Below, piece by piece: positions 26,696 through 35,304 of a DNA stretch of 64,000 nucleotides. The DNA is from Lachnospiraceae bacterium P6B14 (lineage in GTDB: Bacteria > Bacillota > Clostridia > Lachnospirales > Lachnospiraceae), in the NCBI GenBank assembly GCA_000687695.1, contig JHWZ01000006.1:62001-126000 (forward strand), given 5' to 3'. Below the pieces are notes generated by a model. It was not told the DNA's origin, searched no databases, and was given only the letters and a program-made list of their open reading frames with translations. The first letter of the stretch is position 1; each line of letters starts with the position of its first letter. Position numbers and translations under genes: made by a program.

Positions 26696-27346
26696 TCACT
26701 TTCTGACCTTCTTTGAAAGCAGGTTTCCGGCGCCCTGTGTTAGCATAACCATTATGATAAGAATGGTCACTGTAGTCCAAAGCACATCCGTCTGATATCT
26801 GTAGTAGCCGTACTGGAGTGCCAAAGCACCCAGGCCGCCTCCACCTATGACTCCTGCCATAGCGGAGTAGCCAAGTACAGTTGCGACGTTTATGGCTCCG
26901 CCCAGAAGGAGAGATGGCGTAGCCTCAGGTAATATAAAATGAATTATTACATATATAGGTGATGCACCCATCGAGACCGCCGCCTCGATTATACCGGGCT
27001 GAACCTCACACAGTGATGACTCAACCATCCTCGCAACGATCGGAATAGCTCCGATCGTCAGAGGAACTATGGTCGCTACCGTACCGATGGAGGAACCGGT
27101 TATAAATCTTGTGAAAGGAATGAATAAAACCAGAAGGATCAAAAATGGTAACGACCTGAATATATTAACGATCAATCCGATGACAAAGTTCACCGGCCTG
27201 TTCTCAAGTATCCTGTCTTTCGCCGTAGCATACAGGATTATACCCAGCGGGAGTCCGATGATGTACGCAAATAATGCTCCAAAAAAAGTCATCTCGAGAG
27301 TTTCAAGAATACCGTTTAGTATTGCGTCAATTATATACTCACTCAT
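26696..27346 (-). CDS. metI: Methionine ABC transporter permease MetI
   Basis: A 216-residue inner-membrane permease with five to six hydrophobic segments and the EAA-loop region PGIIEAAVSMGASPIYVI that contacts the ATPase. Its start overlaps the end of metN by 8 nt, so the two are translationally coupled. Together with MetN and MetQ it forms a D/L-methionine importer. Confidence 0.95.
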   Translation of the reverse strand: MSEYIIDAILNGILETLEMTFFGALFAYIIGLPLGIILYATAKDRILENRPVNFVIGLIVNIFRSLPFLILLVLFIPFTRFITGSSIGTVATIVPLTIGAIPIVARMVESSLCEVQPGIIEAAVSMGASPIYVIIHFILPEATPSLLLGGAINVATVLGYSAMAGVIGGGGLGALALQYGYYRYQTDVLWTTVTILIIMVMLTQGAGNLLSKKVRK

Positions 27347-28346
27347 CTCTATCCACCTCCTGAACCCCGAGTCCTTTGTCAGTGAAATACCGAATGATCA
27401 ACTCATGGTCATCCTTCTCAGGTGGTAACTCGATAACCATCTGTCCGTATCCTATACCTCCGACACTTCTGGTATTCGCACTGAGGATATTTACTTTCTT
27501 TCCCGTATCCTCTACCAAATTGGATATAAACGGTTTGCTTGCCGAAAGCCCATCAAAAACAAGTCGTATCAGGCGACTGCTTTTAGTTGACGGATCAAAC
27601 GGGTTACTTGGGAACACAAGCTTTTTGGCAGAAGCGGATTTAGGGGCCTGAAATACCTGCTTAACCTCTCCGACCTCAGCCAGATTCCCTTCATCAATAA
27701 TAGCGACTCTGTCGCATATCTTTTCAACCACTGACATCTCATGCGTGATGATAACGATAGTCAGTTTTCTCTTTTCATTTATCTCTTTTAACAGATCCAA
27801 TATTTCTCCGGTGATCTTCGGATCAAGCGCACTCGTTGCCTCATCACAGAGTAGTACCTTCGGGTCCGCAGCGAGAGCTCTGGCTATCGCAACGCGTTGC
27901 TTCTGACCACCTGACAGTCTCGTTGGATACTCATTTTTCTTTTCCTCGAGTCCTACTATCCGGAGCATCTCGAGAGCCTTTTTCTTTCGCTCTGCACGTG
28001 GCAGTCCTGCGATCTTTAACGGCTGCATCACGTTTTCTATTACACTTCTTTGCTGAAGGAGATTAAAGCTCTGGAATATCATTGCGATAGATCTTCTCGC
28101 CTTACGAAGTTCTGCGGGGCTTAAGTTCCCGAGATCCTGTCCGTAAAAACTGACAGATCCCGCGGATACATCCTCAAGACGATTCAGCGTACGTACCAGT
28201 GTAGATTTTCCTGCACCGCTCATACCGATGATTCCGAAAATCTCACCTTCCTCTATCTCAAGGCTTACATCCTTCAGAGCATGAAAGCCCTTGCCGTTGT
28301 TATTATATATTTTTGATACTTTATCCAGCTTAAATACAGCAGACAC
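27339..28346 (-). CDS. metN: Methionine ABC transporter ATP-binding protein MetN
   Basis: A 335-residue ABC ATPase with Walker A GMSGAGKST, the Q-loop in MIFQSFNLL, the signature LSGGQKQRVAIARAL, Walker B VLLCDEATSALD and the switch His in ITHEM. The C-terminal 90 residues are the NIL domain, which binds methionine and mediates feedback inhibition. I prefer GTG 28346, 9 nt from AAGGAG, over ATG 28355, which touches that site. A tRNA-like element ends 17 nt before ATG 28355. Confidence 0.95.
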   Translation of the reverse strand: MSAVFKLDKVSKIYNNNGKGFHALKDVSLEIEEGEIFGIIGMSGAGKSTLVRTLNRLEDVSAGSVSFYGQDLGNLSPAELRKARRSIAMIFQSFNLLQQRSVIENVMQPLKIAGLPRAERKKKALEMLRIVGLEEKKNEYPTRLSGGQKQRVAIARALAADPKVLLCDEATSALDPKITGEILDLLKEINEKRKLTIVIITHEMSVVEKICDRVAIIDEGNLAEVGEVKQVFQAPKSASAKKLVFPSNPFDPSTKSSRLIRLVFDGLSASKPFISNLVEDTGKKVNILSANTRSVGGIGYGQMVIELPPEKDDHELIIRYFTDKGLGVQEVDRDE

Positions 28347-28372
28347 AGCTTTCATCTCCTTTCAAATAATAA

Positions 28373-28443
28373 TGACGCCGGTTGGATTCGAACCAACGAT
28401 TTTCAACTTATGAAGTCTATGCCATTCCCCCGGCGACAGCGTC
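28373..28443 (-). tRNA. tRNA-like gene with CAU anticodon loop (atypical or decayed tRNA-Met)
   Basis: A 71-nt element folds as a cloverleaf: acceptor GACGCTG/CGGCGTC (7 bp with one G-U), U8, a short D-arm GCC...GGC with a G-rich loop, an anticodon loop TTCATAA reading CAU, and a perfect T-arm GTTGG-TTCGAAT-CCAAC. The discriminator is A and CCA is not encoded, as for the tRNA-Pro in this window. Oddities: an A-G mismatch and G-U pair in the anticodon stem, no A14, and a small D-loop. It could be a specialised tRNA-Met, a pseudo-tRNA or a processing or regulatory element. It lies between adh and metN. Confidence 0.55.
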
Positions 28444-28463
28444 ACAAACATGCATGGCATGTT

Positions 28464-29693: not shown

Positions 29694-30581
29694 TTACTGG
29701 AGCGGAACTACCGCACCATCATATTTACCGTTAATGAAATCTGAGATTTCCTTGCTCTGCAGAACCTCTACGAGAGTCTTGATCGCAGGATCATCCTTCT
29801 TTGCCGGTGATGTTGCGATGATGTTTCCGTAAGTTTTAGCAGCGAGTCCGTCATTTGCCTCTACCGCAAGCGCTTCCTTCACATGAAGGCCACCCTCGAT
29901 AGCGTAGTTACCATTGATGACTGCTACGTCTACATCAGGAAGTGCGTTTACAAGCTGCTCCGGAGCGAGCTCCTTGAACTCGATGTTCTTCGGATTCTCA
30001 ACGATATCCTCTACAGTTGCTTCGATGCCTGCATCATCCTTAAGCTTGAGGATACCCTCCTGTGCGAGCAGAAGGAGAGCTCTCGCCTCGTTTGTAACGT
30101 TGTTCGGTACAGCTACGACCGCACCCTTCGGAAGGTCCTTAAGGTCCTTTGTCTTGCCCGCATAGATTCCAAACGGCTCATAGTGGATAGCACCTACTGA
30201 TACCAGATCGGATCCGTTCTCCTCGTTGAACTGATCAAGATAAGGAACATGCTGGAAATAGTTCGCGTCAAGGCTTCCCTCGATAACGCCCGTATTCGGT
30301 GTTACCGAATCCTCAAGCTGTACTACCTCAAGCTCGATTCCCTTGTCAGCAAGTATCGGCTTAGCCTGCTCCAGGATCTCCGAGTGCGGAGTGATATTTG
30401 CTCCTACTGTAAGCTTTGTTGTTTCTGTCGGTGCAGCATCCTGTGTCTGCTCCTCTGCGTTTGGTGTTGCCTTTGTTGACGCTGAAGCGCCGTCTGTTGT
30501 TCCGCATCCTACAAGTGAGAATGCCAATGTGAATGAAAGTACTCCTGCTACAATGTTTTTAATAAAAGTCTTATTTGTCAT
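29694..30581 (-). CDS. metQ: Methionine-binding lipoprotein MetQ
   Basis: A 295-residue NlpA/MetQ-type solute-binding protein. The signal peptide ends in the lipobox SLVGC near residue 26, followed by a Thr/Ala-rich linker. The mature part has LTVGANITPHSEILEQA, DANYFQHVPYLDQF and VAVPNNVTNEARAL, all typical. It is the first structural gene behind a leader peptide and intrinsic terminator (30695-30871). Confidence 0.95.
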   Translation of the reverse strand: MTNKTFIKNIVAGVLSFTLAFSLVGCGTTDGASASTKATPNAEEQTQDAAPTETTKLTVGANITPHSEILEQAKPILADKGIELEVVQLEDSVTPNTGVIEGSLDANYFQHVPYLDQFNEENGSDLVSVGAIHYEPFGIYAGKTKDLKDLPKGAVVAVPNNVTNEARALLLLAQEGILKLKDDAGIEATVEDIVENPKNIEFKELAPEQLVNALPDVDVAVINGNYAIEGGLHVKEALAVEANDGLAAKTYGNIIATSPAKKDDPAIKTLVEVLQSKEISDFINGKYDGAVVPLQ

Positions 30582-30694: not shown

Positions 30695-30728
30695 GCAAAA
30701 AAATTGCCCGGGACTCCTCTTCCCGGGC
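30695..30728 (-). terminator. Attenuator terminator in the metQ leader
   Basis: On the minus strand GCCCGGG-AAGAGGAGT-CCCGGGC followed by AATTTTTTT, between the leader peptide stop and metQ. Its 5' arm with the following AA (CCCGGGAA, plus coordinates 30720-30727) is the exact complement of TTCCCGGG within the leader peptide gene (30808-30815), giving a possible 8-bp antiterminator. Confidence 0.85.
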
Positions 30729-30751
30729 TTACATTTGATATGGCAAACAAC

Positions 30752-30871
30752 TCATGGTTTTATAAGGCGCACGGATAATAAACCGAACGCCCCGGCCATA
30801 TCACTTCCCCGGGAACCAAGCATTCGACTGCACATGGTTTCACACATCATCATTTTCATCATGTCGGTCAT
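30752..30871 (-). CDS. Met/Cys-rich leader peptide of the metQ operon
   Basis: A 39-codon open frame starting at ATG 30871, with AGGAGG 8 nt upstream. Nine of its 25 first residues are Met (runs at residues 4-5 and 7-9) and two are Cys; residues 10-17 read CETMCSRM. The second part is MAGAFGLLSVR. A homologous peptide lies before the transsulfuration operon (33811-33936), with the same start context and the same CET.C.RM, SR.S and MAGAFGL.SVR blocks, and a one-codon indel that keeps frame. With the terminator behind it, this is a classical attenuation leader sensing Met and perhaps Cys supply. The encoded peptide and the RNA structure are both conserved, so a pure RNA switch remains possible. 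Confidence 0.8.
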   Translation of the reverse strand: MTDMMKMMMCETMCSRMLGSRGSDMAGAFGLLSVRLIKP

Positions 30872-30903
30872 AATCCGCACCTCCTTTTCTCTAGGTTGGT
30901 ATT

Positions 30904-30932
30904 ATCATATCATACGGTATGCTTTTTGTAAA
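30904..30932 (-). promoter_or_regulatory. Promoter of the metQ leader and operon
   Basis: Minus-strand TTTACA, a 17-nt spacer and TATGAT, about 30 nt before the leader peptide start. Confidence 0.75.
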
Positions 30933-30955
30933 TTACGTGGATTTAATCATCAGCG

Positions 30956-30970
30956 ATAAGCAATACTTAT
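30956..30970. promoter_or_regulatory. LysR-type dyad upstream of the metQ promoter
   Basis: ATAAG-N5-CTTAT (extended GATAAG...CTTATC), 22 nt upstream of the -35 box, the usual place for a LysR activator. Its end overlaps the stop codon of the preceding gene. Shared with 34020-34034 and 36385-36399. Confidence 0.6.
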
Positions 30971-31533
30971 CACGGCTCAATCCTGATATTCTCTCTCCAT
31001 GTTGCAGGCTTGAACTCTCCCTTGAGCGGAAGGAGTCTCTCGTCCACATCCACACCGAGAACTGAGTTGAAATTGTTTGTTGCCTGCATCTGCGCACCGA
31101 AACCGACGATGATGATGATCTCGGTATCGGTATAGTATTTTCTGAGTCCGTCAAGAAGCTCATCGGAAACCTTTGTGGGATCTTTTACGATCTGCGCTCC
31201 GAGCTGCTGAAGAAGCTTCTCGTTCTCCTCGAGAACAAGGTTTGCAGGATCAAGTCCAAGCTCTTTTAAGTCACTGATGAAGAACAGTGAGCAGAGCTGA
31301 CATCCGTTTGTGGTAGATACGGAATGTGCATAAATGGTTGCTGCACGCTGACCTACTGTTTTCTCAAGAGATGCCCAGCTGTCATACCATCCCATGAATG
31401 CGAGATATGTACCATAGTCCTGAAGCATAACAAGCTTCATGTTTGTGATCTTTCCTTTTGAATTCAGATCATCATAAGCTGCCTTTGACTGAGGATCAAG
31501 CTCCTCCGGTGTTTTAAGATTTACTCTTGCCAT
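30970..31533 (-). CDS. Carboxymuconolactone decarboxylase (AhpD-like) family protein
   Basis: A 187-residue helical protein of the CMD/AhpD superfamily. The redox motif is CQLC near residue 99 within TTNGCQLCSLFFISDLKELG, the CxxC typical of AhpD-type alkylhydroperoxidases, although the proton-relay His usually following is replaced. It is the last gene of the transsulfuration operon, 63 nt after the cysteine synthase-like gene. A role in thiol-linked redox is plausible but unproven. ATG 31533 has AAAGGAG upstream. Confidence 0.88.
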   Translation of the reverse strand: MARVNLKTPEELDPQSKAAYDDLNSKGKITNMKLVMLQDYGTYLAFMGWYDSWASLEKTVGQRAATIYAHSVSTTNGCQLCSLFFISDLKELGLDPANLVLEENEKLLQQLGAQIVKDPTKVSDELLDGLRKYYTDTEIIIIVGFGAQMQATNNFNSVLGVDVDERLLPLKGEFKPATWRENIRIEP

Positions 31534-31596
31534 TTTTATTATCTCCTTTCAATTTTGATTGTTATTTTTTTATATGAAAGCTTCTTATACAAAGCT

Positions 31597-32505
31597 TTAC
31601 ATAACTGTTTTATATAAGCCTTTACTTAAGTAACGATCGCCTCTGTCCGGGAAAATAGTAACTATATTTCCGTGATCGATCTCATCTGCCAGCTTAAGGC
31701 TTGCGGCGAGTGCCGCACCCGATGATGAGCCCGCAAGGATACCTTCTTTTTTTGCAAGAAGTCTGGATGCTTCGAATGCTTCATCATCGTTTATTTTTAT
31801 CACCTTATCTACCAAAGATATATCCATGGTGTCGGCGATAAAATCATTTCCTATTCCCTCTATATCATAGTCATGATGCTCACCTCCGCCTATGGTGGAT
31901 CCTTCAGGATCGGCAAGTACTCCTATGATATCAGGATTCTTTTCTTTTAAGTATTTTACTACTCCCGAGAACGTCCCACCGCTGCCGGCTCCCGCAACCA
32001 GATAGTCAATCTGACCGTCGAGCTGCTCATATATCTCAGGTCCGGTAGTCTCGTAGTGAGCCAGAGGATTTGCCGGATTTCTGAACTGTCTTAATGATAT
32101 CGCACCCTCGGTATTTTTGAGGATCTCTTCTGCCTTTTCCTCAGCGCCGAGCATTCCTGCCTCCCTCGGTGTGTGGATGATATCAGCTCCCAGTGCTCGC
32201 ATGATCTGCTGTTTTTCTTCGGAAAACTTCAAAGGCACCGTAAAGATCACTCTGTAACCCTGATTGAGCGCCGCTACTGCTATCCCGATACCGGTGTTGC
32301 CGGCTGTGGCATCAACTATCGTTCCGCCCTTTTTCAAAACCCCGCGCTTGACCGCATCATCTACCATGTACATCCCGACACGATCCTTTACACTTCCTGC
32401 AGGGTTCATCAGTTCCAGCTTTGCGAAAAGATTTACCCCTTCTTTTATATCCATGTGATTTATTTTGAGTACCGGAGTATGTCCTATCATACTCCGGATG
32501 TCCAT
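31597..32505 (-). CDS. Cysteine synthase / cystathionine beta-synthase family enzyme
   Basis: A 302-residue PLP enzyme of the CysK/CysM/MccA group. The Schiff-base Lys is in NPAGSVKDRVGMY near residue 37, with the phosphate loop GAGSGGTFSGV and the ATAGNTG substrate loop. I start it at ATG 32505 (GGAGG 5 nt upstream), which puts the family start DIRSMIGHTPVLKI in place; ATG 32517 is an alternative. Next to a cystathionine lyase/synthase-like gene, it resembles the MccA-MccB reverse transsulfuration pair of Bacillus, but ordinary OAS sulfhydrylase activity is equally possible. A perfect 10-bp inverted repeat spans codons near its start. Confidence 0.92.
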   Translation of the reverse strand: MDIRSMIGHTPVLKINHMDIKEGVNLFAKLELMNPAGSVKDRVGMYMVDDAVKRGVLKKGGTIVDATAGNTGIGIAVAALNQGYRVIFTVPLKFSEEKQQIMRALGADIIHTPREAGMLGAEEKAEEILKNTEGAISLRQFRNPANPLAHYETTGPEIYEQLDGQIDYLVAGAGSGGTFSGVVKYLKEKNPDIIGVLADPEGSTIGGGEHHDYDIEGIGNDFIADTMDISLVDKVIKINDDEAFEASRLLAKKEGILAGSSSGAALAASLKLADEIDHGNIVTIFPDRGDRYLSKGLYKTVM

Positions 32506-32534
32506 ATGTACCTCCATAACTGTCACCTTTCCGA

Positions 32535-33692
32535 TCAGCTCTTAGCTGATGCCTTGATTGCCTGCTCGAGATCTTTTATCAGGTCATCCGCATCCTCGAT
32601 GCCGACTGATAATCTTATCAGCTCATCAACGATACCGACTTTTTTTCTGATATCTGCAGGTATAGCCGCGTGCGTCATGCTCGCGGGGTGACAGACTAAG
32701 GACTCCACTCCACCCAGGCTCTCGGCCAGGGTAACAAGCTTGAGATTTTTGAAAAATGCCTTGTAGTCATACTTTTCATCAAGCACAAATGATATCATCG
32801 CGCCCGGACCGTCGGCCTGTTTTTTTTGAGTTTCATAACCCGGATCAGACTTAAGTCCCGGAAAATAAACCTTGCTTACATAGCCGCTGTTTTGCAACCA
32901 CTCAGCGATCTTAACCGCATTCTCCACATGTCGGTCCATCCTGACTCCGAGAGTTTTTATTCCTCTGATGACCAGGAAGCTGTCCCATGGTCCGAGAACT
33001 CCACCGATGGAGTTCTGAAGGTAGTAAAGACGATCGGCCAAGGCCTTATCCTTCAGAGCTACGAGACCCGATACCGTGTCGGAGTGTCCTCCGAGATACT
33101 TCGTTCCGCTGTGAAGCACGATGTCCGCACCGAGATCAAGTGGTCTTTGCAGATACGGTGTTAAAAATGTATTATCAACTATAACTAACTTCCCATGCTT
33201 GTGTGCGACCTTTGATACCGCCTCGATATCCGTTACGGTCAGGAGCGGGTTAGCCGGGGTCTCAATGTATACGGCAACCACGCTCTCATCGATCGCATCT
33301 TCCACGAGATCAGTCCGGGAGGAATCGACTATCTCGTATGTTATTCCAAAGTTCTTGAACACATTGTCAAGAATCCTGAATGTCCCTCCGTAAATGTTAT
33401 CCGATACGACCAGCTTGTCTCCCTCTTTGAATAGAGAAAGAACTGTGTTGATCGCCGCGAGTCCCGATGCGAATGCAAGTCCGTATTCACCATGCTCGAG
33501 ATCCGCTATCAGTTTTTCGAGAGCTGCTCTGGTCGGATTTCCTGTTCGGGAGTATTCCCAACCTCCTCTAAGCTCTCCCAGACCATCCTGCTTGTATGTT
33601 GAGGTCTGGTATACCGGAACGCTGACCGCGCCCGTCGTTTCATCTCCATCTATCCCTCCGTGAATCAGAAGGGAGTTAATATGTAAGCTCAT
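32535..33692 (-). CDS. Cystathionine gamma-synthase/lyase family PLP enzyme
   Basis: A 385-residue trans-sulfuration enzyme. The PLP Lys is in LHSGTKYLGGHSD near residue 195; WEYSRTGNPTR, ASGLAAI, VDNTFLTPYLQRPLDLGAD and SLGGVESLVCHPASMTHA complete the family pattern. Sequence alone does not separate MetB, MccB or MetC roles. ATG 33692 is 8 nt from AAGGAG; the ATG at 33698 is too close to that site. It is the first structural gene behind the second leader peptide. Confidence 0.94.
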   Translation of the reverse strand: MSLHINSLLIHGGIDGDETTGAVSVPVYQTSTYKQDGLGELRGGWEYSRTGNPTRAALEKLIADLEHGEYGLAFASGLAAINTVLSLFKEGDKLVVSDNIYGGTFRILDNVFKNFGITYEIVDSSRTDLVEDAIDESVVAVYIETPANPLLTVTDIEAVSKVAHKHGKLVIVDNTFLTPYLQRPLDLGADIVLHSGTKYLGGHSDTVSGLVALKDKALADRLYYLQNSIGGVLGPWDSFLVIRGIKTLGVRMDRHVENAVKIAEWLQNSGYVSKVYFPGLKSDPGYETQKKQADGPGAMISFVLDEKYDYKAFFKNLKLVTLAESLGGVESLVCHPASMTHAAIPADIRKKVGIVDELIRLSVGIEDADDLIKDLEQAIKASAKS

Positions 33693-33762
33693 AGTCATTC
33701 TCCTTTCTTAGGCGTGAGCCACATACATGCTCGGATTCTTCAGCTATGCTCACACCTTTCAC

Positions 33763-33794
33763 ACAAAATATGCCCGGGTGGGTGACCCGGGCAA
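33763..33794 (-). terminator. Attenuator terminator in the transsulfuration leader
   Basis: Minus-strand GCCCGGGT-CACCC-ACCCGGGC followed by ATATTTTGTG. The 5' arm GCCCGGG can instead pair with CCCGGGC inside the leader peptide gene (plus coordinates 33872-33878), an antiterminator arrangement parallel to the metQ leader. The U-run is weaker. Confidence 0.75.
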
Positions 33795-33810
33795 GTAGCA
33801 AGATTATGGC

Positions 33811-33936
33811 TTAACAACATCGTTTGATGATCGAGCGCACGGAAGATAAACCGAACGCCCCAGCCATACTCGCCCGGGAATCCTGCATTCGACAGCAAGT
33901 GGTTTCACATGTTTTCATAAACATCGAAGCGGTCAT
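33811..33936 (-). CDS. Met/Cys-rich leader peptide of the transsulfuration operon
   Basis: A 41-codon open frame starting at ATG 33936 with GAGGAGGTGCGGAAT upstream, the same start context as the metQ leader. Residues 10-17 read CETTCCRM and the C-terminal part is MAGAFGLSSVR, ending with Cys-Cys. It is richer in Cys and poorer in Met than its homologue, matching a cysteine-linked operon. Alignment needs one codon gap and is otherwise ungapped to residue 38. A terminator follows. The role as attenuation peptide is inference from layout. Confidence 0.8.
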   Translation of the reverse strand: MTASMFMKTCETTCCRMQDSRASMAGAFGLSSVRSIIKRCC

Positions 33937-33967
33937 ATTCCGCACCTCCTCTCTTCAAACTGCTATA

Positions 33968-33996
33968 ATCCTAGCATGTTACTAGGAATATGTCAA
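33968..33996 (-). promoter_or_regulatory. Promoter of the transsulfuration leader and operon
   Basis: Minus-strand perfect TTGACA, a 17-nt spacer and TAGGAT. The spacer contains a CCTA-N9-TAGG dyad (33970-33986). Confidence 0.75.
33970..33986. promoter_or_regulatory. CCTA-N9-TAGG dyad, copy 1
   Basis: On the minus strand CCTAGTAACATGCTAGG, between the -35 and -10 boxes. A similar 17-mer lies in the MetE-like gene promoter at 35284-35300. The position suits a repressor; the binding protein is unknown. Confidence 0.4.
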
Positions 33997-34019
33997 TTAT
34001 ACCATTTTTATCGTCGGCG

Positions 34020-34034
34020 ATAAGCAAAGTTTAT
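34020..34034. promoter_or_regulatory. LysR-type dyad upstream of the transsulfuration promoter
   Basis: ATAAG-N5-TTTAT (extended GATAAG...TTTATC), again exactly 22 nt upstream of the -35 box, as at the metQ promoter. Confidence 0.6.
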
Positions 34035-34103
34035 CACAACAAAGCCCGGACAGATGATCAATTATGATCATCCATCCGGGCTTTACGATTTCCCGAGTCT
34101 CTT

Positions 34104-35222
34104 TTACTTGCCCCACACTTCCTCGGCGATCTCCTTAACAAGCTTCAGCTTTGCCCACTGCTCATCCTCAGTAAGCTTGTTGCCGATCTCACAGGAAGCG
34201 AATCCGCACTGCGGGCTTAAGCACAGTCTGTCAAGTGGCACATATTTTGCTGCTTCTTTGATTCTTGCGATCACTGCTTCCTTATCTTCGAGGGCAGGAG
34301 TCTTTGTCGTGATCAATCCGAGCACTACCTTTTTATCCTCAGACACCTTTGCCAAAGGCTCAAATCCACCTGATCTCTCATCATCATACTCAAGGAAGAG
34401 AGCGTTGACATTTTCTCTTGCAAATACATGATCTGCTACTGTGTCATAGGCTCCGCTCGTAAAGTAAGTTGAGTGATAGTTTCCTCTGCAGATATGAGAG
34501 TTGATGATCATGTCATCAGGCTTTCCTTCGAGTGCAAGGTTATTTACCTTTAACAGCTGATCCTTCACCTCCTCGATATCGATACCGAGTGATTTGTATC
34601 TGAGCTTCGCGGCATCTCCCACGATAGCACCCCATGTACAATCATCGAGCTGAAGGTTTCTGCAGCCTGCATCATAAAACTGCTTTATCACATCCTGATA
34701 AGCCTTTCCGATATCCTCGATCAGCTCATCATTTGTAGGATAAAACTTCCTGGTAGTCTCGAAGTTTGCAGGAACGATCATCTGCTGGAATGTCTGAGCC
34801 GGTGCCGGAATAGTGTATTTGGCTACGGTATTCTCATCCTCAAACTGCTTCAAGAACTTGAAGTACTCAACAAAAGGATGTGGCTTTGCTTTTATTTTTC
34901 CAACCAGATATGTGTCATCGAGAACTGCCAACTCATCATTAAACGGAACTCCGTTTCCCGTAGCCTCATGCTCGACTACCTCGAATCCCCACATGAAATC
35001 CAAATGCCAGAAGCTTCTGCGGAACTCGCCGTCTGTTATCACGTGATAACCTAACTCTTTCTGTTTAGCGACAACCTTTGTTATCTCATCGTTTACTACC
35101 TTATCAAACTCGGCTTCACTTATCTTCCTTGCCTGGAAAGAAGCCTTTGCGTCTTTGAGAGCCTGCGGTCTCAAAAAGCTACCGACAAAATCATAGCGAT
35201 ATGGTGTTTTTATTGTGCTCAT
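34104..35222 (-). CDS. Cobalamin-independent methionine synthase family protein (short MetE/YxjG-like)
   Basis: A 372-residue protein equivalent to the catalytic half of MetE, like Bacillus YxjG/YxjH. Zinc-site residues are visible as INSHICRGN (His-x-Cys) near residue 237, a Glu in FLEYDDERSG and a Cys in LSPQCGFAS near residue 340. QLDDCTWGAIVGD is also typical. It should methylate homocysteine, but the methyl donor of short forms is not certain. It is divergent from a LysR gene and has its own promoter with a CCTA-N9-TAGG dyad. Confidence 0.92.
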   Translation of the reverse strand: MSTIKTPYRYDFVGSFLRPQALKDAKASFQARKISEAEFDKVVNDEITKVVAKQKELGYHVITDGEFRRSFWHLDFMWGFEVVEHEATGNGVPFNDELAVLDDTYLVGKIKAKPHPFVEYFKFLKQFEDENTVAKYTIPAPAQTFQQMIVPANFETTRKFYPTNDELIEDIGKAYQDVIKQFYDAGCRNLQLDDCTWGAIVGDAAKLRYKSLGIDIEEVKDQLLKVNNLALEGKPDDMIINSHICRGNYHSTYFTSGAYDTVADHVFARENVNALFLEYDDERSGGFEPLAKVSEDKKVVLGLITTKTPALEDKEAVIARIKEAAKYVPLDRLCLSPQCGFASCEIGNKLTEDEQWAKLKLVKEIAEEVWGK

Positions 35223-35275: not shown

Positions 35276-35304
35276 ATTATAATCCTACTGTTTCACTAGG
35301 TAAA
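35276..35304 (-). promoter_or_regulatory. Promoter of the MetE-like gene
   Basis: Minus-strand TTTACC, a 17-nt spacer and a perfect TATAAT. An 18-bp perfect palindrome GTAAAATATATATTTTAC (35300-35317) overlaps and extends upstream of the -35 box. Confidence 0.75.
35284..35300. promoter_or_regulatory. CCTA-N9-TAGG dyad, copy 2
   Basis: On the minus strand CCTAGTGAAACAGTAGG, within the promoter spacer of the MetE-like gene; same length and ends as the copy at 33970-33986. Confidence 0.4.

Follow-up and report, generated by a model that had tools for sequence, protein, structure and literature searches.

Two short open reading frames (ORFs) with cysteine and methionine codons lie upstream of sulfur genes in a 64,000-nucleotide stretch of the Lachnospiraceae bacterium P6B14 genome (this whole stretch is the window in what follows). 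We consider it highly probable that each of these leaders acts by ribosome-mediated transcription attenuation, with charged tRNA-Cys as the signal, perhaps alongside charged tRNA-Met. As far as sequence comparison can tell, the leaders are no local oddity but members of a family that extends across the Lachnospiraceae and into other Clostridia. By that comparison, the family has a conserved open frame with Cys codons, a covarying antiterminator, a second covarying pairing inside the ORF, terminators and, in most cases, sulfur genes downstream.

Two leaders and their relatives

The first-pass annotation of this DNA had described two homologous leader ORFs whose alignment keeps the frame with a single one-codon gap. 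This description is borne out, both ORFs lying at the given coordinates on the minus strand. The peptides align at 63% identity with one one-codon gap, the DNA is 76% identical over 83 nt and 91% identical over a further 34 nt, and each ORF has a Shine-Dalgarno sequence and a predicted terminator. Six segments of each leader, A to F, could pair in alternative ways: A, B, C and D lie inside the ORF, and E and F, around and after the stop codon, would make up the terminator hairpin with its upstream neighbour. The features as read from the sequence, with matches to the covariance model R1 (described below), are as follows.

Leader 1
30878..30885, minus strand, Shine-Dalgarno sequence AGGAGGTG
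30752..30871, minus strand, ORF of 39 codons upstream of a metQ-type gene; R1 match at 30700-30834, 63.7 bits, E 2.1e-14
30830..30832, minus strand, control Cys codon (TGC in MCSRM)
30820..30827, minus strand, element A (CRM codons), possible pairing with C
30795..30815, minus strand, element B (SR..MA codons; 30807-30815 and 30795-30803), putative 5' half of the antiterminator
30783..30790, minus strand, element C (GAFG codons), possible pairing with A or D
30767..30774, minus strand, element D (SVR codons)
30720..30744, minus strand, element E, GCCATATCA (30736-30744) plus the terminator 5' arm (30720-30728)
30706..30728, minus strand, predicted intrinsic terminator (E:F) with U tract, 8 bp

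Leader 2
33943..33950, minus strand, Shine-Dalgarno sequence AGGAGGTG
33811..33936, minus strand, ORF of 41 codons upstream of a cystathionine-enzyme gene; R1 match at 33766-33899, 56.6 bits, E 1.3e-12
33892..33897, minus strand, tandem Cys codons (TGC TGT in CCRM)
33885..33892, minus strand, element A
33862..33879, minus strand, element B (SRASMAG codons)
33851..33858, minus strand, element C
33835..33842, minus strand, element D
33785..33811, minus strand, element E, AGCCATA (33805-33811) plus the terminator 5' arm (33785-33795)
33771..33793, minus strand, predicted intrinsic terminator (E:F), 9 bp

The terminator segments fold at -17.2 kcal/mol (leader 1) and -18.4 kcal/mol (leader 2), energies reached by 0 of 200 shuffles, and the scanned stretch holds 7 terminator-like sites where 3.0 are expected. 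The antiterminator of leader 1 reads as UUCCCGGG:CCCGGGAA (8 bp) plus UGAUAUGGC:GCCAUAUCA (9 bp), and that of leader 2 as CCCGGGCGAG:CUUGCCCGGG (10 bp, one G-U) plus UAUGGCU:AGCCAUA (7 bp). The antiterminator pairings of 8 and 7 bp noted earlier are real but underestimated, each leader having a second helix.

Relatives were sought with a two-row peptide profile against 299 genomes of the same family, which returned a handful of clear ones (76 genomes matched at E up to 1, most of them weakly, and these were not used). Ten aligned leaders of other genomes, with the window excluded, gave the covariance model R1. Within the window R1 matches exclusively the two leaders, at E up to 10, and in 397 family genomes it makes 63 matches in 47 genomes and 43 of 334 genera, a count that includes the window's own genome and the ten training leaders. 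A second model, R2, built from 61 leaders, reaches beyond the family: it matches 14 of 391 genomes of the class (12 from other families) and 5 of 398 genomes of the phylum (3 from other classes). Small frames related to the two leaders, which the first-pass annotation had proposed to look for upstream of met and cys genes, do exist in Lachnospiraceae genomes, mostly preceding sulfur genes.

A pattern scan of named genomes added at least 120 stretches, representing at least 80 loci. R2 matches 79 of the 80 loci listed, at least 6 of which repeat leaders already known; this is no independent test, because leaders of this kind went into the training of R2 and part of each match is already set by the pattern. 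Independent support for these loci comes from their ORF and gene context. One pattern hit, L118 (Ruegeria), is a chance match. The named relatives carry Lachnospiraceae and other Clostridia labels and are mostly metagenome-assembled; the AC2029 and XBB2008 records are not so labelled. Two leaders (L117 and L166) lie on contigs labelled Phascolarctobacterium and Eggerthellaceae, through horizontal transfer or mis-binning. L122 (1047-1199) has the leader start and core twice in tandem, at a distance of 127 nt, and its first reading frame contains a masked stretch.

From 81 R2 matches we left out L164, which a contig end cuts, and both L122 rows; removal of identical leaders took the set from 141 rows to 135. 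Counts over 132 leaders omit L091 and L093, whose CRM anchor was not found, and L092, whose anchor was misplaced (an 18-nt insertion was seen by eye). Upstream sites were counted in the 130 leaders with enough sequence. Alignment A6 holds 61 of 63 leaders, without L077 and L079, the shortest R1 matches. Residues at CC/CR, ATG and the B core were counted only in the 60 leaders found by R1, because the pattern-scan leaders are fixed by design at these positions.

Reading frame, control codons and covariation

The core peptide of the family is M-C-C-R-M-xx-S-R-A, and positions below are counted from the methionine of CRM. Frameshifts in homologues had been named beforehand as a sign against a leader peptide; over the part checked, the 12 codons preceding this methionine, an in-frame stop occurs in 0 of 132 leaders; in the other two frames a stop is present at 54 and 46 sites. 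A start codon and a Shine-Dalgarno sequence of at least 5 nt, open to CRM, are found in 48 of the 60 R1 leaders, and in 2 and 1 in the other frames. Judged by these counts, the family has the short ORF, Shine-Dalgarno sequence and conserved frame of an attenuator.

Cysteine occupies position -2 in 48 of the 60 leaders and position -3 in 49 (methionine in 10 more), and 54 have at least two Cys codons within the eight before M. These eight codons average 2.47 Cys, against 1.28 and 0.12 in the other frames, and 1.65 Met, in a leader set that is biased toward such Cys-codon sites because R1 itself contains the stretch. At the control positions TGT, TGC and ATG interchange, which fits the expectation if the encoded amino acid matters, and runs such as MCMCRM, MCCMWMCCRM and CCMCMCRM are seen. 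On this evidence the control codons, Cys and Met, match the pathway of the mostly sulfur-related genes downstream, as they do in attenuators. Cysteine also appears among the last three residues in 22 of 60 leaders, often as CGATGT before the stop, where it may mark a second checkpoint or belong to a stop-codon hairpin.

Covariance analysis, one of the checks put forward in the first-pass annotation, finds strong covariation between B (the SRA..MAG segment) and E (the terminator 5' arm and its upstream neighbour). In a MAFFT alignment of 61 leaders, not fitted to structure, 85.5% of B:E cells are paired, against 79.9% after shuffling and 30-50% when the partner is slid; the main helix has 93.3% of its cells paired and the second helix 69.5%. 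Cells changed on both sides number 54, against 16.9 in shuffles (reached by 0 of 500), and include G-C to A-U exchanges in 11 and 9 sequences at two pairs. Pairing with a leader's own partner is stronger than with swapped partners (mean -19.3 versus -16.3 kcal/mol, 0 of 10000 permutations; 42 of 63 leaders taken singly), and the per-site ranks are poor because the fixed span used cut off E in leaders with short terminators. Between C and D there are 40 double-changed cells, against 21.3 in shuffles (0 of 500). A:C complementarity is also stronger than in shuffles (mean -8.7 versus -6.5 kcal/mol, with 99 of 132 leaders below the shuffled mean) and by comparison falls mostly at one place, its best position lying at offset 31-34 in 72 of 132. 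A:C and C:D are mutually exclusive, and A:C would place B in a loop. The family alignment also contains U tracts and terminator 3' arms. Thus two further marks of an attenuator can be read from the alignment, namely an intrinsic terminator between the control codons and the gene and, through the B:E covariation, an antiterminator exclusive with it.

Covariation both inside and outside the ORF, together with an element A that is nearly invariant (CGA in 54 of 60), might also be expected of a pure RNA switch, either a riboswitch or a T-box-like element in which the ORF is incidental. We regard this as very unlikely, since the frame, the Shine-Dalgarno sequence and the Cys and Met codons are conserved although the N-terminal part of the peptide varies, and since Cys codons swap between TGT and TGC or turn into ATG as would suit a role for the amino acid. 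Searches of the leaders and their peptides against Rfam, Pfam and NCBIfam gave no match beyond weak ones at relaxed thresholds; in Rfam there was none at the gathering threshold and six weak matches at the relaxed one (best E 0.22). On the frame, codon and pair data, a pure riboswitch was rejected. The T-box model (RF00230) matches at neither leader; elsewhere in the window's genome it finds a single T-box-like match, which at 92.5 bits falls narrowly short of the cut-off (93). The SAM riboswitch (RF00162) is found neither at the leaders nor in the window's genome. That the leaders replace SAM riboswitches is unsupported: RF00162 is present in 310 of 397 family genomes, and 32 of the 47 genomes with a leader have it too (Fisher p 0.09). 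Among the matches listed, SAM riboswitches in family genomes are mostly present in one copy.

The MAGAFGL.SVR segment had also been suggested as an arrest peptide, that is, a nascent chain (this one, or CRM) that stalls the ribosome and senses a metabolite. Its residues are indeed conserved between the window's two leaders, and CRM..SRA is conserved in the family. We nevertheless give this suggestion almost no weight. Positions -12 to -6, counted from the methionine of CRM, are variable, with no residue exceeding 27%, and MAGAF is absent altogether from several homologues. Further downstream, the residues that are conserved fall on pairing elements and are exchanged when the pairs are, as in R to Q (CGG to CAG) and A to T (GCA to ACA). 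Because residues change while pairs are kept, the conservation of MAGAFGL.SVR would mostly reflect RNA pairing.

A model for the switch

We propose a model where the small ORF is translated during transcription of the leader. When charged tRNA-Cys is scarce, the ribosome would stall on the Cys codons and cover A, leaving B free; C would then pair with D and B with E, the terminator would be blocked and the sulfur genes transcribed. When charged tRNA-Cys is plentiful, the ribosome would proceed, and A:C may form and hold B in its hairpin loop. Alternatively, the moving ribosome may cover B while E is made. By either route E would pair with F and transcription would end. We infer the stalling, the way it acts on termination and the kinetics behind the off state.

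The spacing of these elements is consistent with such a role for cysteine. The leading edge of a ribosome lies about 13 nt past the first base of its A site, and B starts 8-9 nt after the first base of the AUG in CRM. By this textbook footprint, a ribosome with the Cys codon at -2 in its A site covers A and ends 1-2 nt short of B, and one with the AUG of CRM in its A site has B half covered. The earlier proposal that ribosome position on Met or Cys codons decides between terminator and antiterminator thus has comparative support, in the frame, the distance of the Cys codons, the covarying antiterminator and the sulfur genes. As to the codons themselves, the Cys codons just before CGA-AUG fit the geometry, while the Met-rich start of leader 1 does not.

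Modelling of the states, with ribosome footprints entered by hand and before E is made, gave C:D 8.0 pairs at the Cys stall across 132 leaders, A:C being 0 by construction because A is masked. With the ribosome at the stop codon, A:C has 5.9 pairs and C:D 2.1. The antiterminator lies below the terminator in energy at the Cys stall in 116 of 132 leaders, and in leader 2 by 1.5 kcal/mol.

It is possible, though rather doubtful, that methionine is the main signal for leader 1 and that leaders with mixed Cys and Met codons are dual sensors. The Met-rich run of leader 1 and the metQ-type gene behind it point this way, as do the Met codons among the eight before CRM in the family and the alternation of C and M in some leaders. 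Yet most of the codons that lie at the right distance from B are Cys codons, before metQ genes too, and a stall at the CRM methionine covers part of B; the model then favours the terminator, B:E exceeding the 3' hairpin in only 38 of 132 leaders.

Several observations weigh against attenuation as we propose it. At equilibrium, B:E has more pairs than the 3' hairpin in 99 of 132 leaders when no ribosome is present and in 72 of 132 when one stands at the stop; in transcripts that do not yet include F, a ribosome at the stop still leaves B:E formed (at least 6 core pairs) in 119 of 132. Left unmasked, leader 1 folds best into the antiterminator, and the best structure of leader 2 contains the terminator. 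In the stalled state of leader 1 the terminator is favoured by 2.3 kcal/mol. When the ribosome stands at the stop, leader 2 keeps C:D, its D lying about 20 nt upstream of the stop, and makes no A:C/C:D switch. The number of C:D pairs with a double change shows no excess (301 of 500 shuffles reach it), and sliding C:D by -2 leaves 69.3% of cells paired against 70.4% unslid. A:C has a z below -2 in just 43 of 132 leaders and offers little covariation because A is nearly invariant, and the shuffles take no account of the leaders' relatedness by descent. In a few leaders the ORF is short or stops early, as for example in L005/L033 (ending after AFD) and L079 (after SRAQK). The sole other searched genome of the window's genus (G108) is without a match, and some genes behind leaders, coding for a cyclase-family protein, a protein without a Pfam match, an SDR enzyme and PepT-like peptidases, have no obvious sulfur role.

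Equilibrium folding was rejected as proof of the switch, as it supports the stalled state and not the off state. Because B:E persists in such folds, the off state must rest on kinetics, with A:C forming first or a ribosome lying over B as E emerges.

Genes, promoters and comparable systems

The genes behind the two leaders were assigned by their best NCBIfam hits.

29694..30581, minus strand, metQ-type gene behind leader 1 (below the NCBI cut-off)
27339-28355, metN-type gene further downstream of leader 1 (below the NCBI cut-off)
26696-27346, metI-type gene further downstream of leader 1 (above the NCBI cut-off)
32535..33698, minus strand, cystathionine gamma-synthase/lyase-type enzyme, first after leader 2 (below the single-enzyme cut-offs)
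31597..32526, minus strand, cysteine synthase/cystathionine beta-synthase-type PLP enzyme, second after leader 2 (just below the NCBI cysKM cut-off)

The order behind leader 1 is metQ, an iron alcohol dehydrogenase-like gene, tRNA-Met, metN and metI; the tRNA-Met gene (CAT anticodon, 28372-28444, minus strand) thus lies inside this row.

A first downstream ORF of at least 80 codons is present for 131 of 135 leaders, with assignments made through cluster representatives. Seventy of the 131 fall in a cluster of OAH/OAS sulfhydrylases (metY) and cystathionine enzymes and 40 in one of cystine-type and MetQ-type binding proteins. Smaller groups comprise 4 glutathione-transferase-like proteins, 3 cysK, 2 metN-type proteins, 2 PepT-like peptidases and 2 amino-acid permeases, and 8 singles include metK, a LysR regulator and a (2S)-3-sulfopropanediol dehydratase-type protein (the L141 single looks spurious). 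This last protein (L041:1736-3145) is a glycyl radical enzyme type, partial, with 780 bits against an NCBI cut-off of 1000, and it ties the leader sensor to organosulfonate sulfur. Three proteins behind leaders (L074:1162-2988, L050:2-1441 and L163:2089-3783) combine cystine/basic-amino-acid-type and MetQ/NlpA domains in a single chain, and those behind L052, L067, L076 and L090 have a glutathione S-transferase C-terminal domain (PF13410, tested for L076 only).

Upstream of the leaders lie promoter-like and operator-like sites.

30904..30932, minus strand, promoter-like TTTACA-17-TATGAT of leader 1 (consensus match only)
33968..33996, minus strand, promoter-like TTGACA-17-TAGGAT of leader 2 (consensus match only)
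33970..33986, minus strand, CCTA-N9-TAGG palindrome in the leader 2 promoter, proposed Rrf2/CymR-like operator
30955..30972, minus strand, TGATA-N9-TATC dyad upstream of leader 1, proposed CmbR-like LysR site
34019..34036, minus strand, TGATA-N9-TATC dyad upstream of leader 2

Promoter-like sites with 10 of 12 positions precede both leaders, with no excess in the scanned stretch (8 versus 6.0 expected). The CCTA-N9-TAGG palindrome is absent upstream of leader 1. In the family it stands upstream of 89 of 130 leaders, where shuffles predict 0.1 (36 of 60 in the R1 set); other spacings are rare (N8 in 3, N7 in 1, N5 in 1 and the remaining tried spacings in 0). Its consensus, ACCTATTGACATAGTAGG, contains TTGACA and covers the -35, and a conserved TA stands at the expected start of the -10. 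A divergent gene adjoining one leader encodes an Rrf2 protein (PF02082, E 2.8e-33). CymR is a cysteine repressor that we take to belong to the Rrf2 family. It is known from Bacillus and Staphylococcus, according to the portions of PMC2940859 used here. The window has two palindromes against 0.35 expected (4 of 100 shuffles reach two), and the whole genome has them in 8 places. The window's second one, at 35284-35300, lies between metE (34104-35222, minus strand) and a LysR gene (35385, plus strand), which suggests the same repressor for metE. Between the leader 2 promoter and metE is a strong 20-nt inverted repeat with a 4-nt loop (34041-34084), perhaps the metE terminator. The TGATA-N9-TATC dyad occurs 4 times in the window against 0.85 expected, and is close to the Streptococcus pneumoniae CmbR operator GYGATAAAAAWWAYTTATMAC as given in an excerpt of PMC5131005; in this or its mirror form it stands upstream of 19 of 130 leaders against 0.24 expected.

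The frequency of the palindrome suggests a second regulatory layer. Both motifs would also suit a scheme in which an Rrf2-type repressor and a LysR-type regulator control the sulfur genes through the promoter alone, the terminators being constitutive and the ORFs junk. This seems to us extremely unlikely, as it leaves the antiterminator covariation, the open frame and the Cys codons unexplained, and promoter control can coexist with attenuation. Taking leaders, genes and operators together, we think it likely that one homologous leader-peptide module serves as a regulon-wide sulfur sensor in Clostridia, spread vertically or horizontally before at least 10 gene classes, in which mixed Cys/Met runs read both amino acids and which frequently comes with an Rrf2-type operator that spans the -35. 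These classes would be metY, cystathionine enzymes, cysK, cystine and methionine uptake, metK, the sulfopropanediol dehydratase-type enzyme and others.

With most of the relevant anatomy in place, the leader family appears to work like a classical attenuator. In the trp, his and phe attenuators of Escherichia coli, control codons in a short ORF, exclusive hairpins and a terminator make the position of the ribosome the sensor, and the present leaders appear to share all four traits. In contrast to those attenuators, the strand that would form the antiterminator with E is located within the ORF, on the 3' side of the control codons, with E about 98 nt (median) past the CRM methionine, and a single homologous module stands before many operons. 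Canestrari reportedly worked on Cys leader peptides in mycobacteria. In Actinobacteria, the excerpted text of Seliverstov et al. 2005 (PMC1262725) likewise places runs of Cys codons in short ORFs before cys operons; there the Cys codons lie near the stop, and Mycobacterium is without a conserved terminator, Rho being proposed, whereas the present family has intrinsic terminators and a covarying antiterminator. The uORFC-8-2 motif upstream of cysS in Rhodobacterales, for which Brewer et al. 2021 (PMC8632094, in part) proposed attenuation, shares a tandem-Cys upstream ORF, an intrinsic terminator and the suggested ribosome-mediated mechanism. It differs in belonging to Alphaproteobacteria, in preceding cysS only and in having its Cys codons inside stem 1; cysS is not among our named downstream cluster representatives, and the structure is also unlike as far as the text of that paper describes it.

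Within Firmicutes, where leader-peptide attenuators are seen as rare, parts of Naville and Gautheret 2010 (PMC2965389) describe His leader peptides before hisS and hisZ, another case against the usual T-box rule; compared by description, they concern another amino acid and other genes. The Cys T-boxes and S-boxes of Clostridium perfringens, as treated in sections of PMC2940859, share with our leaders the gene class and premature termination relieved by cysteine shortage, but are tRNA- or S-adenosylmethionine-binding RNAs, whereas the sensor proposed here is a translated ORF. The same source, in those sections, allows that other mechanisms of cysteine control may exist in clostridia beside T-boxes. 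Searches of the open-access literature, which do not reach subscription papers, turned up no description of this leader family.

By the common view, a leader-peptide attenuator is a convergent and short-lived device that serves a single operon. One recognisable module with a covarying RNA and a conserved codon sensor contrasts with that view, and we expect that its covariance model can annotate sulfur genes and that its members can be compared to test how RNA folding depends on where the ribosome stands. For gut and rumen Clostridia, many of which carry relatives, the family would provide a mechanism by which cysteine exerts control. If the model is true, these leaders would be a translation-based counterpart of the S-box and Cys T-box RNAs.

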